Assembly (NCBI GenBank): GCA_023132135.1
Contig: JAGLYR010000047.1
Location: forward strand, 1-21,429
Direction: 5' to 3'
Length of the DNA stretch: 21,429 bases
From: Candidatus Eiseniibacteriota bacterium
GTDB taxonomy: Bacteria; Arandabacterota; Arandabacteria; JAGLYR01
Part shown: positions 189-18,264 of the stretch, in pieces
Numbering within the stretch: the stretch's first letter is position 1
How the letters are laid out: each line of letters begins with the position of its first letter
The notes under the pieces: generated by a model
The model's database searches: none
What the model saw: only the letters and a program-made list of their open reading frames with translations
What the model was told of the DNA's origin: nothing
Position numbers and translations under genes: made by a program

Positions 189-1268
189 ATGAGTGGGACA
201 AATCCTATGGGACCTGCAAAACCTGTGAACCGCAGGGATTTCCTCAAGAACACGCTGGGCCTCGCTGCTGCCGCGACGGCTTTCTGCGCGTCCGGCTGCG
301 CGTCCGGCTGCGCGGCCGAAGAGGCGCGGTCGAATCTGGAAACAGGGCCGGAACCAAAGGCGTCGAAGCGAAACCTGAAACATCCCGTTGTCGTTGTGGC
401 CCGGGATCCCGGGGTTGCCAATGGGTGGGAGGTCGATGAGGACCGCTTGCGGGCTCTTCTGAGCCGCGCGATGAGGGCGCTGAGAGGATCTACGGATGCC
501 CGGGAGGTCTGGCGATCGCTGTACGCTCCGAGGGACAGAGTCGGCCTCAAGGTGAACGCGCTGGCGGGAATCCCGGCGGTCACCCATCCGGAGCTGGCCT
601 TCGCTGTCGCCGATTCCCTCCGCGGAATCGGGATCGAACGGAAGAACATCATCCTCTGGGATCGCACGGGGACGGATCTCAGGCGGGGTGGGTACACGCT
701 CAACGAAGCTGGAAGCGACTACCGCTGCTTCGGCACGGACGCCCGGGGTGTCGGCTACGAATCGGATCACGTGTTCTGCGGGAAGGTAGGAAGTCGGTTG
801 TCCCGGGTTCTGACCGCGCTCACCACGGCCCAGGTCAACATGCCGATCCTGAAGGACCACGGGCTGGCCGGAGTAAGCGGCGCGCTCAAGAACTGGTACG
901 GCGCGATCCACAATCCCAACAAGTACCACGGCAACAATTGCGATCCCTGGGTCGCCGATGTCCACGCGTTGCCGGAGGTGCGAGGGAAATCGCGGTTGGT
1001 GATCTGCGACGCGCTCTACGGGCTCTGTCACGGCGGTCCAGGTTTCAAAAAGCGTTGGGCATGGAACTTCGGCGGGATTCTGGTGGGGACGGACCCTGTG
1101 GCGGTGGACCGGATCGAATGGGCCATCATCGAAGAGCGGCGGGCCGAGGTGGGTCTCAAGCCCCTGATCGAGGAAGGCCGGCCTCCGAAATGGCTGGACA
1201 CGGCATCGGACAGCGATCACAACCTGGGTGTCTGCAACCTCCAGGAGATTGAGAGGATCGATGTCTGA
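189..1268 (+). CDS. DUF362 domain protein with Tat lipoprotein-like signal
   Basis: This 359-aa protein is recognised as a DUF362 family member by VNMPILKDHG, the GVSGALKNWYGAIH block and GTDPVAVDRI. The biochemical role of DUF362 is not established; some relatives carry ferredoxin domains, but no such Cys cluster is seen here. The N-terminus has a Tat-type motif (NRRDFLK, Arg15-Arg16), a hydrophobic stretch and a lipobox-like CASGCASGC at residues 33-41, so export through Tat and perhaps lipidation are expected. I chose ATG 189 because AGAGGG lies 8 nt upstream; ATG 165 is also in frame. The 3' end overlaps the radical SAM gene by 8 nt, which implies co-translation. The lipobox Cys is duplicated by a 12-bp tandem repeat (285-308). 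Confidence 0.85.
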   Translation: MSGTNPMGPAKPVNRRDFLKNTLGLAAAATAFCASGCASGCAAEEARSNLETGPEPKASKRNLKHPVVVVARDPGVANGWEVDEDRLRALLSRAMRALRGSTDAREVWRSLYAPRDRVGLKVNALAGIPAVTHPELAFAVADSLRGIGIERKNIILWDRTGTDLRRGGYTLNEAGSDYRCFGTDARGVGYESDHVFCGKVGSRLSRVLTALTTAQVNMPILKDHGLAGVSGALKNWYGAIHNPNKYHGNNCDPWVADVHALPEVRGKSRLVICDALYGLCHGGPGFKKRWAWNFGGILVGTDPVAVDRIEWAIIEERRAEVGLKPLIEEGRPPKWLDTASDSDHNLGVCNLQEIERIDV

Positions 1269-2454
1269 CCGGCCCGGGAAATGGTTCGAGCCCGACTTGG
1301 CGAGGAGCGCCTTGCATGTGACCCGGAGGGAATTCCTCGAGCGGACCTGCGCCTGCGCGGGGATGGCGACGCTTGTCGCCACCGGGTTGCCGGCGGCGGC
1401 CGGGGCACTGGGGAATGGCCCGTGGAGTGACGACGAGCACGAGATCCTCGGGATCCGGGAGGCATCGTGGTATGAGAAGCTCGACGAGAAGAGGGTGGAG
1501 TGCAAGCTCTGCCCCCGGGGCTGCGTGGTCGACGATTTTGAGCGCGGCTACTGCGGTGTCCGGGAAAACCGGGGAGGGACATATTACACACTGGTCTATG
1601 GGCGGCCCTGCAGTCTGCACGTGGATCCCGTAGAAAAAAAGCCTCTCTTCCATTTCCTTCCCGGCAAGCAGGCCTTCTCCATTGCAACGGCGGGGTGCAA
1701 CATCGAGTGCTTGTTCTGCCAGAACTGGCAGATCTCGCAGACGCGCCCCGAAGACCTGCGGTCCATTGAACTTCCTCCGGCAAGACTTGCCCGCGAAGCC
1801 GAGAGGGCCTCAGCTCCCATTATTGCCTACACCTACAGCGAGCCCGTGGTTTTTTCCGAGTACATGCGGGACTGCGCTATCGAAGGACACAAGCGTGGCA
1901 TCCGCTCCGTGATGATCTCGAACGGGTACATCCAGCCGGGCGCGCTGCGGGACCTGTGCCGCGTTCTGGATGCCGTGAAGATTGACCTCAAGGCGTACCA
2001 GGACGGCTTTTACCGGGACATGTGTGATGGCGAGCTGGAGCCTGTCCTGAAGACTCTCGAGATTCTCAAGGAACAGGGGATCTGGTTCGAGATCGTGTAC
2101 CTGATCATTCCGACGCTCAACGACAAGATGGAGGAGATCCGGCGGATGTCCGAGTGGATCCGGGACTCCCTGGGTCCGCACGTGCCCCTTCATTTCTCCC
2201 GCTTTCATCCCACCTACAAGATGCAGAACCTGCCCCGGACTCCGGTTTCCACTCTGGAGAACGCGCGGTCCACCGCCATGGAGGCCGGTCTCCAGTTCGT
2301 GTACCTCGGTAACGTCGTGGGCCACGAGGGCGAGTCCACGTACTGTCCCTCCTGTGGCGAGCGCGTCATTCACCGCATCGGATACCAGATCGTGGAGAAC
2401 CTCGTGGATGGGGGGGCGTGCTCCTGCGGGGAACTCATCCCGGGCGTGTGGTGA
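1261..2454 (+). CDS. AmrS/PflA-like radical SAM enzyme with Tat-type signal
   Basis: This 397-aa protein is a radical SAM enzyme resembling AmrS of the AmmeMemoRadiSam group and pyruvate formate-lyase activases. The [4Fe-4S]/SAM motif CX3CX2C is at C146, C150 and C153 (GCNIECLFCQNW). A second Cys group, CKLCPRGC, is at 81-88. The C-terminus has a zinc-ribbon-like pair, CPSCG (362-366) and CSCGELIPGVW (387 onward), typical of this family. The N-terminus carries TRREFLERTC followed by a hydrophobic Ala/Gly segment, which resembles a Tat signal; this is unusual for a radical SAM enzyme. The start at 1261 overlaps the end of the DUF362 gene and is preceded by GAGAGG. Substrate is unknown, and no AmrA or Memo (AmrB) gene is in the window. 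Confidence 0.85.
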   Translation: MSDRPGKWFEPDLARSALHVTRREFLERTCACAGMATLVATGLPAAAGALGNGPWSDDEHEILGIREASWYEKLDEKRVECKLCPRGCVVDDFERGYCGVRENRGGTYYTLVYGRPCSLHVDPVEKKPLFHFLPGKQAFSIATAGCNIECLFCQNWQISQTRPEDLRSIELPPARLAREAERASAPIIAYTYSEPVVFSEYMRDCAIEGHKRGIRSVMISNGYIQPGALRDLCRVLDAVKIDLKAYQDGFYRDMCDGELEPVLKTLEILKEQGIWFEIVYLIIPTLNDKMEEIRRMSEWIRDSLGPHVPLHFSRFHPTYKMQNLPRTPVSTLENARSTAMEAGLQFVYLGNVVGHEGESTYCPSCGERVIHRIGYQIVENLVDGGACSCGELIPGVW

Positions 2455-4360: not shown

Positions 4361-4461
4361 CCATTCGACGGGCTCAGGACGAACGGTTTGAGCGCATCCG
4401 TCCTCGGTCGCCGCTGCCCTCTCGCGCCCTCGCCTTGGTCTCAGCCGCCGTCCGCCGGATG
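4361..4461 (+). repeat. Compound A+B repeat between glycosyltransferase and beta-helix genes
   Basis: The family A core (ATTCGACGGGCTCAGGAC..., 4363-4386) is followed by TTTGAGCGCATCCG and family B (4417-4461). The same order and orientation occur at 2816-2940 and 5982-6060. The rest of the 4320-4627 gap shows nothing else convincing; a TTGACG at 4491 has no matching -10. Confidence 0.7.
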
Positions 4462-5944: not shown

Positions 5945-6060
5945 CTCAGGACGAACGGTTTGGGGGACGGCAGTGTTGGGTCCTTCGACGGGCTCAGGAC
6001 GAACGGTTTGAGCGCACCCGTCCTCTGTCGCCCTTGCCTTGTCGCGCCCTCGTCCCCTCG
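5945..6060 (+). repeat. Compound A+B repeat upstream of recD2
   Basis: A partial family A copy (CTCAGGACGAACGG, 5945-5958) has its left half replaced by the unrelated GCCTTGCGGCGAGCCTGCCG. It is followed by the GGCAGTGTTGG lead-in and a complete core at 5982-6006. Family B-like DNA (GAGCGCACCCGTCC..., then TCGCGCCCTCG) follows and degrades into a C/T-rich run to about 6095. The interval 5816-6183 contains no gene that I can support. Confidence 0.7.
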
Positions 6061-14641: not shown

Positions 14642-15475
14642 ATGACCGCAGACAGTCCATTTGACCTGGATGCGCACCCCGGGAAGGGACTGGGTGGTCA
14701 CCCGCATGGAGTCTCTCTTCCCTCTCCCAGGGCCACTCTTCTGCTTGTCCTCGTGAGTCTCGTTCTGTGCGTGACGGCCGGCACGGTACTTCAGCTGGCG
14801 GATCTCATGATGGGGATCATCGGGACGGAGATCCTGTGCATCATGCTGCCGCTTGCGGTAGCGGTTCGCCTGGCCGGGTGTGATGCAGGGGAGACCCTGA
14901 AGCTGCGGTGGCCCGGATGGATCCCGGTGGCGTTGGCCGCCGTTATGGCTCCGGCGGCCGCGATTGTTGCCGGGGAGATTTTCTGGATCCAGGGCCGGAT
15001 CATACCCATCCCCGCATGGTACCTGGATGCAATGGAGAATCTGGTTGCTCTGGGGCGCGGGCAGGACCTCTGGCTCGGTGTCCTCGCGTTGTCCGTTCTT
15101 CCCGCTGTCGGTGAGGAAAGCCTGTTTCGGGGTTTTGTGCTTTCGGGACTGGAGCGCCGCTTCGGTCGTGTGGGAGCCCTGTGCCTGAGCGGCGTGCTCT
15201 TCGGACTTATTCATGTGGACATCTATCGATTTACCGCGGTATGCCTGCTCGGGGTTTTCTTGGGATGGGTGACGCTGACCTCGGGAAGTCTCTATCCCGC
15301 CATGGTGATCCATGCAATCAACAACGCCCTGATACTGATATCGCCGGAGCGCATGGAGCGCATGGATATCCAGTGGCTGGAGGGAAACGAGAGTGCACCA
15401 TTTCTCTGGATGGTTGCCGCTGTACTGGTGCTTGCAGCCGGAGTGGTGGCGATGCGAAAGGTAGAGCGGAGATGA
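14642..15475 (+). CDS. CPBP family intramembrane metalloprotease
   Basis: This 277-aa polytopic membrane protein has the three CPBP/Abi (CAAX protease-like) motifs in order: EESLFR (E158, E159, R163), FGLIH (F187, H191) and HAINN (H224, N228). Several hydrophobic segments (about 31-50, 58-78, 94-112, 143-157, 178-190, 196-212 and 250-270) are consistent with the family. Members cleave within membranes or act in peptide self-immunity and protein maturation; the substrate is unknown here. It starts 18 bp after tonB, with GGGGGGAGG (14633-14641) directly against ATG 14642. Its stop overlaps the start of the next gene by 4 nt, so the two are likely translationally coupled. Confidence 0.85.
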   Translation: MTADSPFDLDAHPGKGLGGHPHGVSLPSPRATLLLVLVSLVLCVTAGTVLQLADLMMGIIGTEILCIMLPLAVAVRLAGCDAGETLKLRWPGWIPVALAAVMAPAAAIVAGEIFWIQGRIIPIPAWYLDAMENLVALGRGQDLWLGVLALSVLPAVGEESLFRGFVLSGLERRFGRVGALCLSGVLFGLIHVDIYRFTAVCLLGVFLGWVTLTSGSLYPAMVIHAINNALILISPERMERMDIQWLEGNESAPFLWMVAAVLVLAAGVVAMRKVERR

Positions 15476-16308
15476 TCTGGCGTTTCCTCGATACTGGTGG
15501 GCATGACGGCGCTTTCAACATGGCGGTGGATGAGGCGCTGTTCCGGCGATGCCGCGCCGGGGACTGTCCGCCGGTTTTCCGCGTGTATCGCTGGAACCCG
15601 TGGACAATCTCGCTGGGAAGGATGGAAGACGCCGCCCTTCGCCTGGATCTGGCGGCTTGCCGGAAAGATGGCGTTCCGGTGGTGCGGCGTCCGACGGGCG
15701 GGCGGGCCGTTTACCACGCGGAAGAGCTGACCTACAGTTTTGTGGCGCGCCACTCGGACCTGCCGGTAGATTCTACCATCGGCGGAACGTATCGCTTTGT
15801 GGCGCGCGCTCTGGTGGAGGCCTTGAGATCGCTGGGGGTTCCGGCAGAGATCTGGCCGCGCGGCTCGGGCGCGGCCCAGTCGGTGTGGAATGCTGCCGGT
15901 CGCGGGGAGCTGCGCCGCGGGCCTTGTTTTGCGAGCGTGAGCCAGTACGAGATCTGTGTAGGTGGCAAGAAACTGGTGGGGTCGGCTCAGAGGCGGTGGC
16001 CGGAAGGGATCCTGCAGCACGGATCCATACTCCTCGGGTCTGCGCACCGCAGGATTGGGCGGTATCTCCGCGGAGGTTCCAGCGCCGATGGAGAAGCCCT
16101 GGCAAGCCGGACCACGTCGGTTTCCGAAGAGCTCGAACGCCCTGCGGCAGCGGAAGGTCTGGTCGAACAGCTGAAGGAAGCCACCGCGCGTATCTGGAAC
16201 GTGGAGATGGAGGAAGATCGGCTCGGACCTGAGGATCTGGAAGAAGTGGAGAAGTTGCGCAAGTTACGGTATGAGGCGGAAGGATGGGGTTTGGGAGACC
16301 CGAATTGA
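15472..16308 (+). CDS. lipM: LipM-like octanoyltransferase / lipoate-protein ligase family
   Basis: This 278-aa cytoplasmic enzyme belongs to the biotin/lipoate ligase fold and would transfer octanoate or lipoate to a carrier domain such as GcvH or E2. The ligand-binding motif is RRPTGGRAVYHAEELTYS (72-89). The conserved Lys lies in GGKKLVGSAQRR (164-175), followed by LQHGSILLG. Cys152 in GPCFASVSQYE matches the position of the catalytic Cys of Bacillus LipM (Cys150), and the total length is also the same as I recall for LipM. This favours octanoyltransferase over ATP-dependent LplA. It begins by a 4-nt ATGA overlap with the CPBP protease gene. No lipA or gcvH is nearby. Confidence 0.82.
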   Translation: MIWRFLDTGGHDGAFNMAVDEALFRRCRAGDCPPVFRVYRWNPWTISLGRMEDAALRLDLAACRKDGVPVVRRPTGGRAVYHAEELTYSFVARHSDLPVDSTIGGTYRFVARALVEALRSLGVPAEIWPRGSGAAQSVWNAAGRGELRRGPCFASVSQYEICVGGKKLVGSAQRRWPEGILQHGSILLGSAHRRIGRYLRGGSSADGEALASRTTSVSEELERPAAAEGLVEQLKEATARIWNVEMEEDRLGPEDLEEVEKLRKLRYEAEGWGLGDPN

Positions 16309-17297
16309 AGTCGACTCATCTGCTCGAGATCAAGGCACTGACGGTCGAGTTCCCGATGGACCAGGGAGTGCTCAGAGCTGTCGATGAGGTCAGCCTGTCC
16401 CTTGCCCGGGGGGAGAGTCTGGGACTGGTAGGGGAATCGGGGTGTGGCAAGTCTGTGATGGCGCAGTCTATTCTAGGACTGCTTCCCCCTCCCGGGCGGG
16501 TGCGTGCGGGGGAAATCCTCTTTGATGGAATGGATCTGGTGAAGCTGTCTCCGCCGGAGCTGCGGAAGGTGAGAGGACGCAGGATCGGCATCGTTTTCCA
16601 GGAACCTATGCGCTCGCTGAACCCGGTACTCCGGTGTGGGGAGCAGGTGGCGGAGGTGCTCCGGGCCCATCGGGGAGTCCGCGGGGGGGAAGCCCGCGCC
16701 CAGGTGTGCGCTATTTTCGAACAGATGGGTTTCCATGACGGGGGGGACCTGTACGACGCGTATCCCCATCAGCTCAGTGGGGGCATGAGGCAGAGGGTCA
16801 TGATCGCCGTTGCCCTGGCCTGCGATCCGTGTGTCCTGTTGGCGGATGAACCGACCACTGCTCTCGATGTGACCATCCAGGCTCAGATTATCTCGCTCCT
16901 GGCGCGTTTGAAGCGGGCGAGGAACCTCTCAGTCCTTTTTATCTCGCACAACCTGGCCCTGGTGTCGGAGGCGTGCGAGCGGGTAGCGGTGATGTACGCC
17001 GGGCGCATTGTGGAGGTGGCGCCGGTGGCCGGGCTCTTCGACAAGCCATGGCATCCGTATACACGGGCCCTGATCGCATGTCTGCCGGGGGTCGATGACG
17101 CCACACGGCCCACCCCCATCCCGGGAGAAGTTCCCCATCCGTTGGCGCTTCCCGGCGGCTGCCGTTTCCGCGATCGCTGCCCGGAAGCCCGGGCTGCGTG
17201 TGGCAAGGAGCCGCCGCTCGTTGAAGGGGAGGCCGGCCATTGGGTGCGTTGCTGGGTAGCGCAGGAGGCAGTGGGGAGGAACCACGATGCGGAGTAG
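16284..17297 (+). CDS. Oligopeptide/dipeptide-type ABC transporter ATPase (DppD/OppD-like)
   Basis: This 337-aa nucleotide-binding subunit is of the peptide/nickel importer class. Walker A is [10 protein letters not shown], the Q-loop is [10 protein letters not shown], the signature is LSGGMRQRV and Walker B is [12 protein letters not shown], followed by the H-loop FISHN. The C-terminal oligopeptide-ATPase extension has [15 protein letters not shown]...VRCW, whose Cys residues may bind an Fe-S cluster as reported for relatives. ATG 16284 overlaps lipM by 25 nt and follows GGCGGAAGG; TTG 16305, with GGGAG upstream and a TTGA overlap, is an alternative. It pairs with the following ATPase. No permease or solute-binding protein is in the window. 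Confidence 0.9.
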
Positions 17298-18264
17298 CAG
17301 CGGGGTTGTGGTTCTGGAGAATGTCGGGAAGACCTTCCGGATGGGTGGGACACCGTTCCAGCCTCCTCGTTCCGTTGACGCAGTGCGAGAAGTGTCCCTG
17401 AGCATCGACCGGCGTGAGAGCCTGGGTCTGGTTGGGGAGTCGGGATCAGGCAAGACTACGGTGGCGCGTATCATGGTGGGGCTATTGGAACCCACGCGGG
17501 GAAGTGTCTGTTTTGAGGGGCGAGACCTCTTCTCCGCTTCTGCCGGGGAACTGCGGATGTTGCGGCGGCATCTCCAGATTGTTTTCCAGGATCCCGAGAG
17601 CGCTTTGGATCCTCGCCAGACGGTTTTCCAGGCTCTCTTCGAAGTTCTCCAGGTGCACGGCCTCATCCGATCCGGGAAGGGGCGCGAGCAAATCCGGAGC
17701 CTCCTCAAGATGGTGGACATCCGGTGGGAGGATGCCCATCGGTATCCCCACCAGCTCAGCGGCGGGCAGTGCCAACGGGTGGGCATCGCCCGAGCGCTTG
17801 CCCTGGAGCCCTCGGTTCTTGTGGCCGATGAGCCCGTCTCGCAGCTGGATGTCTCGACGCAGGCCCAGATTGTCTCGTTGCTGGCAGATCTGAGAGGCCG
17901 CTTGGGGCTCACGGTGGTCCTCATTGCCCACGATCTGAGTGTGGTGCGGCAGGTGGTGGACCGGGTTGCGGTGATGTTGGGGGGCTGGATTGTCGAGATG
18001 GCTCCCACGGAAGATCTGTTCTCCCGTCCCCTGCATCCCTACACGCGGACGCTTCTTGAGGCGGTTCCGCGCGCCCGCCCATTCACCGGGTCTTTCGCAA
18101 GAACTGCTTCTCGCCCTCTGGGGCAGTGGAGTGCTCCCCGCTCTCCGGCCGCTTGCCCGTTCGCCCCGAGATGTCCGGACGGAACCAGTGCCTGCGCAGC
18201 CCGGATCCCCGATCTGGCCCCGGCGGATAATCCAGCCCACCTCGTGCGGTGCCGGTGGCAATAG
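17287..18264 (+). CDS. Oligopeptide/dipeptide-type ABC transporter ATPase (DppF/OppF-like)
   Basis: This 325-aa protein is the second ATPase of a heterodimeric peptide-type importer. Walker A is LVGESGSGKTT, the Q-loop is FQDPESALDP, the signature is LSGGQCQRVGIA and Walker B is VLVADEPVSQLD, followed by the H-loop LIAHD. The C-terminus has the oligopeptide-ATPase motif CPFAPRCPDGTSACA...VRC. Its ATG overlaps the upstream ATPase gene by 11 nt and is preceded by GGGAGGA 7-8 nt away, so the two are co-translated. It ends the five-gene run. No terminator hairpin was found after it; the next promoter starts at 18359. Confidence 0.9.
   Translation: MRSSSGVVVLENVGKTFRMGGTPFQPPRSVDAVREVSLSIDRRESLGLVGESGSGKTTVARIMVGLLEPTRGSVCFEGRDLFSASAGELRMLRRHLQIVFQDPESALDPRQTVFQALFEVLQVHGLIRSGKGREQIRSLLKMVDIRWEDAHRYPHQLSGGQCQRVGIARALALEPSVLVADEPVSQLDVSTQAQIVSLLADLRGRLGLTVVLIAHDLSVVRQVVDRVAVMLGGWIVEMAPTEDLFSRPLHPYTRTLLEAVPRARPFTGSFARTASRPLGQWSAPRSPAACPFAPRCPDGTSACAARIPDLAPADNPAHLVRCRWQ

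Follow-up and report, generated by a model that had tools for sequence, protein, structure and literature searches.

A Tat-signal AmrS-type radical SAM enzyme encoded with a DUF362 protein: a candidate extracytoplasmic form of the AmmeMemoRadiSam system

The stretch of DNA analysed here (the window; 21,429 nt) is one entire contig (C288) of its genome, and bases 5′ of its position 1 are therefore invisible. Close to this edge, two genes overlap on the forward strand. The first (189–1268, with an ATG at 189 and a TGA stop at 1266–1268) encodes a 359 aa DUF362 protein, and the second (1261–2454, with an ATG at 1261) encodes a 397 aa radical SAM enzyme. Plausible ribosome-binding sites precede both starts: AGAGGG at 175–180, the likely Shine-Dalgarno sequence of the DUF362 gene, and GAGAGG 5′ of the radical SAM start. 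Each reading frame has the third-position GC bias expected of genes (0.77 and 0.81, respectively). An earlier reading of this DNA from its letters alone (the sequence-only reading) had described an 8-nt overlap and suggested that the two proteins are made together. The overlap is confirmed, with ATGTCTGA as the shared bases (1261–1268), and joint translation is supported.

Two other features of the window lie apart from this pair. A REP-like repeat, TTCGACGGGCTCAGGACGAACGG, is present in five near-identical copies (2595–2617, 2769–2791, 2818–2840, 4364–4386 and 5984–6006), where none would be expected by chance. One copy falls within an over-long 5′ extension of the RecD2 ORF, and the RecD2 gene therefore probably starts further in. 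At 15274–18264, two oligopeptide-type ABC ATPase genes overlap each other, and a lipoate-ligase-like gene runs into the first of them.

Both proteins of the pair begin with a predicted Tat signal. That of the DUF362 protein (189–311) reads N-RRDFLK-N..LGLAAAATAFCASGC, with an uncharged hydrophobic stretch after the motif; its twin arginines (231–236) are residues 15–16, and five homologues show no variation at R15, R16 and F18. This N-terminus scores 19.7 bits against TIGR01409, the NCBIfam TAT model, above the cut-off of 16.7, and 18.9 bits against PF10518, under the cut-off of 22.7. Given cysteines at residues 37 and 41, the protein is possibly a Tat lipoprotein. The signal of the radical SAM enzyme (1261–1404) reads T-RREFLE-RTCACAGMATLVATGLPAAAGA, again with an uncharged hydrophobic stretch after the motif, and its twin arginines (1324–1329; residues 22–23) are invariant in five sequences. 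We scored shuffled versions of each protein for the combination of xRRxF[LIVMF] and, within 60 residues, an uncharged hydrophobic stretch, and found it in 1 of 20,000 shuffles of the DUF362 protein and in 5 of 20,000 shuffles of the enzyme, rates that rule out chance RR motifs. The RR and hydrophobic region are kept in orthologues, and the genome encodes TatC (contig C237; 1.4e-63). Thus, the RR-x-F-L motifs and hydrophobic segments of the sequence-only reading hold up at both N-termini, and the signals and their comparison across relatives support Tat targeting of both products.

The sequence-only reading had called the second product AmrS-like, and its score against TIGR04337, the model for AmrS of the AmmeMemoRadiSam system, bears this out (384.6 bits; cut-off 220). 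The protein also matches PF04055 (67 bits). The radical SAM cluster motif, CNIECLFC (1696–1719; C146, C150 and C153), and an N-terminal CxxCPxxC...C (1501–1554; C81, C84, C88 and C98) are invariant in alignment A1; the latter is possibly a second cluster or metal site. A zinc-ribbon-like CPSC...CSC lies near the C-terminus (2344–2427), with C362, C387 and C389 invariant. Models of glycyl-radical activases score below their cut-offs (TIGR04041, 56 vs 250 bits; TIGR02493, 55 vs 232 bits). We set aside an AlphaFold model of AmrS, built from a five-sequence alignment, since its pLDDT was 60.5 and its N-terminal part was unreliable.

The DUF362 protein scores 77.3 bits against PF04015 (gathering cut-off 24). 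When its structural model (pLDDT 68) was compared with known structures, the nine best VIA entries had Z values of 11.3–13.1 and the next had 4.9; these nine are eight LarA-type racemases or LarA-like enzymes and Thermotoga Q9WYS3. Foldseek E-values for the model were 0.002–0.04, and a sequence comparison with solved LarA chains gave no significant match. The model therefore indicates a LarA (nickel-pincer) fold. A conserved block, KDHGLAGVSGALKNWYGAIHNPNKY (852–926), is marked by invariant residues; H224, K234, H241 and H247 are all invariant, with H224 and K234 10 apart in the sequence (H-x9-K). In LarA, Lys184 binds the nickel-pincer cofactor and His174 lies 10 residues before it (PMC11770544), and H224 and K234 may be the equivalents of His174 and Lys184. 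A LarC-type gene is present in the window's genome. Loading of a cofactor before export would explain the Tat route of the DUF362 protein. The genome has seven DUF362 genes in all, on contigs C288 (the window), C115, C331, C194, C171, C38 and C1, one of which shares a contig with a Memo-AMMECR1 gene about 14 kb away.

A phylum-level search covered seven genomes, the window's own among them. In the sister family, AmrS orthologues are 55–58% identical to the window enzyme and all start with an RR signal; separate paralogues, 35–43% identical, have no extension and start at the catalytic core, and signal-bearing and signal-less forms occur together in one genome. The window's genome also has a second AmrS (45% identity), broken off at a contig edge. 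RR is kept by AmrS orthologues from KSB1, Planctomycetota and two Myxococcota-type records. A KSB1 genome has the DUF362 (Tat), AmrS (Tat) and lipoprotein Memo-AMMECR1 genes side by side in a row, and in the sister family DUF362 adjoins AmrS at only one of the four complete Tat-AmrS genes. In an Omnitrophota record (L035), AmrS has no signal and the overlapping DUF362 protein has RR; this one case would be consistent with an enzyme that is carried out by its DUF362 partner as a passenger. At L002 (976–1668), the second AmrS of the genome is followed by a protein-L-isoaspartate methyltransferase gene, the frames overlapping.

We found AmrS above the cut-off in 197 of 290 genomes and built a tree from 125 AmrS proteins, taken from stretches around the better-scoring matches. 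N-termini were classed by rule and then corrected by hand before the tree was made; L105 was reassigned to the Sec type afterwards because it has a clear membrane segment at its N-terminus. The Tat class includes calls by eye that the rule missed (for example L108, L153, L155, L193 and L194) and three proteins with RK instead of RR (L149, L152 and L171), and L185, labelled ‘none’, was left out because a contig end truncates it. A single clade of 73 proteins (SH-aLRT 86) contains every exported form: 40 are of the Tat type, 19 carry a Sec signal or anchor, 11 have a split-off N-terminus and three are unclassifiable. The 52 proteins outside it comprise 51 signal-less forms and one broken at a contig edge. 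The sequence-only reading had raised the possibility that homologues mostly lack RR. This is true of the family overall, but the non-RR forms lie mostly in separate signal-less clades. It had also offered the alternative that the signal has decayed and the enzyme stays cytoplasmic. No simple loss of the signal was seen among the 70 classifiable members of the exported clade, which rules this out as the main reading, and genomes without TatC carry a different export signal or an anchor instead.

TatC was found in 210 of the 290 genomes; it is present for all 36 Tat-type AmrS in this set and for only 3 of the 19 Sec-type AmrS, the other 16 lying in genomes without it (Fisher p 3e-11, ignoring kinship). 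With kinship taken in, this amounts to two well-supported independent switches (five on the best tree), all in the same direction and too few for a test. Two close sisters illustrate the pattern: L172 has DRREF and TatC, whereas L148 has no RR and its genome no TatC. Taken with the overall match, this pair suggests that it is location, rather than the signal sequence, that is conserved.

The 11 split enzymes have no signal of their own, and most of those inspected are accompanied by a separate membrane peptide. At eight loci (L086, L093, L095, L097, L099, L101, L103 and L164), a small membrane protein upstream carries the usual first residues of AmrS, at L088 a larger upstream protein does so, and at L163 and L100 no such upstream peptide was found. 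The single-span membrane proteins 5′ of signal-less AmrS at L095 (5001–5249, minus strand), L093 (2388–2840), L103 (3721–3978) and L164 (3–293) end in an EAxYY-like segment that is normally the start of AmrS; the gene split at these four loci moves the N-terminus of AmrS onto a membrane peptide. Each of the 18 Sec-type forms tested has an n-region of net positive charge, and AxA-like cleavage sites occur in several. The charge of these forms is +2.2 before the hydrophobic stretch and +1.4 after it, with 11 of 18 in the expected direction; because the residues after the stretch are also positive, the orientation of these forms is not firm.

These N-termini bear on the proposal that the segment is a membrane anchor and that the catalytic domain remains in the cytoplasm. 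Some Sec-type forms, with long, uncleaved-looking hydrophobic segments and positive charges after them, would suit an anchor, as would the several split forms that pair a signal-less AmrS with a separate membrane peptide. However, an anchor does not account for the RR of the window protein and of most of the 39 other Tat-class proteins, for the restriction of that class to genomes with TatC, for the positive n-regions and cleavage sites of the Sec-type forms, or for the lipoprotein or Sec signals of the partner, Memo-AMMECR1. We consider a cytoplasmic catalytic domain distinctly improbable. The AmrS enzyme is probably located outside in genomes of the Tat type.

DUF362 is present at 16 of the 40 Tat-type AmrS loci and at none of the 30 other exported loci, nor elsewhere in the survey, which rules it out as a constant partner of AmrS. 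Where the 5′ end of the neighbouring DUF362 gene is intact, RR is present in 13 of 14. The partnership proposed in the sequence-only reading, for which a tabulation of co-occurrence had been suggested, is therefore borne out in part: the genes overlap, both products have Tat signals and RR is mostly kept, but DUF362 is an optional partner. At L145 (5113–6171, minus strand), an anchored AmrS is overlapped by a protein that looks DUF362-like, has a ferredoxin motif and shows no signal; where Tat is missing, AmrS may thus have a cytosolic-looking DUF362 as its partner. The overlapping genes, the shared Tat targeting, the restriction of this DUF362 type to Tat-type AmrS and a LarA fold that suggests cofactor insertion before export could also mean that AmrS acts in the cytoplasm, on DUF362 or in loading its cofactor, and that Tat removes the finished complex with AmrS as a passenger or chaperone. 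We give this little credence: it leaves unexplained the Sec-type AmrS, the Sec-exported Memo-AMMECR1, which could meet AmrS only outside, and the more than half of Tat loci that have no adjacent DUF362.

Genomes with exported AmrS have Memo and AMMECR1 joined in one protein, mostly behind a Sec or lipoprotein signal. By rule, 42 of 50 fusions have such a signal, with two edge cases omitted and a few more recognised by eye, and four or so fusions are cytosolic. A signal was found in none of 38 solo Memo proteins of about 275 residues, a count that omits one long, odd ORF and two solo-looking proteins that are fusions truncated at contig ends. Counted per genome, in a sample that was not exhaustive, 40 genomes have both a signal-bearing fusion and an exported AmrS, six and two have only one of them, and nine have neither (p 2e-5). 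The fusion of the window's genome, on contig C1, starts with a Sec signal, MKFRSLGMLAIIASVSAMMSYGDA, and scores 233 bits against TIGR04336 (cut-off 26) and 169.8 bits against TIGR04335 (cut-off 99).

A large membrane protein with a Spermine_synth domain, a family that binds a SAM derivative, is encoded at 23 of the 73 exported AmrS loci and at none of the 52 others (p 8e-7), the stretches in the latter set being shorter. In sister families its gene adjoins or lies near that of the exported fusion, mostly end to end; in the window's genome it is on contig C86 (686.8 bits with the model of that cluster), and in a genome of another family (G008) the fusion, the synthase-like gene and a Tat-type AmrS all lie within 9 kb. 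A DsbD-like membrane protein recurs near Sec-type AmrS loci. MoeA, an HtrA-like protease and an M23 peptidase adjoin the AmrS of relatives at only two or three loci, and we read these as local. At the loci surveyed, no neighbouring gene of AmrS hinted at a substrate. A second, distant radical SAM family with clear Tat signals was seen at L026 (1294–2334), L161 (5039–6085, minus strand) and L170 (4908–6206, minus strand), the signals being SRRDFVRTAMYLG, TRRDFIKHACYLG and TRRDFIRDLLCLSG, respectively; it scores about 170 bits with the AmrS model built here, the L026 member is far under the TIGR04337 cut-off, and two of the three members adjoin an exported AmrS.

The chemistry of radical SAM enzymes depends on SAM and on strongly reducing electrons, both of which are made inside the cell. 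To our knowledge, all characterised radical SAM enzymes are intracellular, SAM does not occur outside the cytoplasm, and there is neither a SAM exporter nor a general machinery for Fe-S assembly outside. The literature searched gave no description of exported radical SAM enzymes or of an exported AmmeMemoRadiSam system. Low-potential electrons, which the sequence-only reading did not expect in the envelope, are less of an obstacle than it supposed. One row of genes in the window's genome comprises an RnfD-type, an RnfG-type and two RnfA/E-type members. In relatives, the protein encoded directly 5′ of AmrS combines FMN_bind and Fer4_5 domains as NosR does (L093 and L095), a membrane polyferredoxin lies beside AmrS (L108) or nearby on the opposite strand (L157), and the upstream protein at L088, FMN-binding as judged by eye, ends in the EAxYY-like segment that its AmrS is without. 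Membrane routes for low-potential electrons therefore exist, and they may connect to AmrS.

The apparent absence of SAM outside would suit an AmrS that is exported as an Fe-S protein but carries out no radical SAM chemistry there, and instead serves Memo-AMMECR1 and DUF362 by carrying electrons, building a metal site or giving structural support; membrane electron-transfer neighbours (NosR-like, polyferredoxin and DsbD-like proteins) would fit the first of these roles. Exported forms nonetheless conserve the CxxxCxxC motif together with the radical SAM residues around it, and the genes are under strong purifying selection (pN 0.09–0.19 vs pS 0.54–0.82). An exported AmrS with no radical SAM chemistry seems to us unlikely.

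Sequence comparisons support the signals, the clade, the match with TatC, the signals on Memo-AMMECR1 and the gene neighbours, and the pair appears to be one form of a wider envelope system rather than an isolated oddity. We favour, with a probability of roughly 60%, the reading that this is an extracytoplasmic form of AmmeMemoRadiSam, a known but uncharacterised system, in which AmrS operates at the outer face of the cytoplasmic membrane. The actual location, active chemistry outside, the electron route, the SAM supply and the substrate are inferred parts of this proposal, which runs as follows. AmrS and DUF362 would be co-translated, and their folding and cofactor insertion (Fe-S for AmrS, perhaps a nickel-pincer type for the LarA-fold DUF362) would be completed in the cytoplasm before both exit by Tat, with DUF362 possibly leaving as a lipoprotein. 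Outside, they would join the Memo-AMMECR1 fusion which, being Sec-exported unfolded, would meet AmrS only there. AmrS, which is related to glycyl-radical activases, would draw on SAM and on electrons delivered by membrane carriers (Rnf in the window's genome; in relatives, polyferredoxins or NosR-like FMN/Fe-S proteins), and with these would modify or activate one of its partners or an envelope substrate. The membrane spermidine-synthase-like protein may have a part in handling SAM or what is formed from it. All of these components occur in the window's genome: TatC, Rnf, LarC, the spermidine-synthase-like protein and a Memo-AMMECR1 fusion that bears a Sec signal.

Radical SAM chemistry outside would be the least certain step of the full reading. 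Sec-type AmrS would need Fe-S assembly outside, which is chemically awkward; moreover, the 11 split AmrS have no signal of their own, DUF362 is absent from most exported loci, and the match with TatC comes down to two to five switches. We hold only tentatively the stronger version, in which a complete radical SAM pathway operates outside, with its own electron feed from membrane flavin or Fe-S proteins, a dedicated source of SAM for which the membrane spermidine-synthase-like protein is one possible route, and an envelope substrate, kept across many bacterial families whatever the export route. A widespread clade that keeps an export signal, and has another type where Tat is missing, implies one of two things: the space outside offers SAM or something that replaces it, or the clusters are used differently. 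It also provides a handle on Memo and AMMECR1, which have human relatives and an unsettled biochemistry: here they are fused, bear export signals and have defined gene neighbours, in a setting that is genetically testable.

Parts of this arrangement resemble known systems. In NosR/NosZ and NapGH/NapA, folded Fe-S or metal enzymes are exported by Tat and receive electrons from membrane FMN or Fe-S proteins. NosR-like proteins adjoin some exported AmrS, whereas here there is no respiratory terminal reductase and the enzyme is of the radical SAM class. The closest solved structures to AmrS by sequence are those of PFL-AE (PDB 3c8f/3cb8; 8e-14), with which it has the radical SAM core in common. 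AmrS differs from glycyl-radical activases in falling far under their NCBIfam cut-offs, in its predicted export, and in its extra N-terminal CxxCPxxC...C and C-terminal zinc-ribbon-like region. DUF362 belongs to the same Pfam clan, CL0471, as LarA and the DUF2088 nickel-pincer nucleotide racemases (PMC11770544), its model strongly matches LarA-type structures only, and its His-x9-Lys spacing is that of LarA His174–Lys184; it differs in its Tat signal, in the lack of a significant sequence match to LarA and in having a model of moderate confidence. The nearest counterpart to the whole is AmmeMemoRadiSam itself (TIGR04337, AmrS; TIGR04336, Memo or protein B; TIGR04335, AMMECR1 or protein A): AmrS is above its family cut-off, and the window's genome has one protein above the cut-offs of both the A and B models. 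What sets the present form apart is that AmrS is predicted to be Tat-targeted, that A and B are fused behind an export signal, and that a membrane spermidine-synthase-like protein and a Tat-signal DUF362 protein are added.
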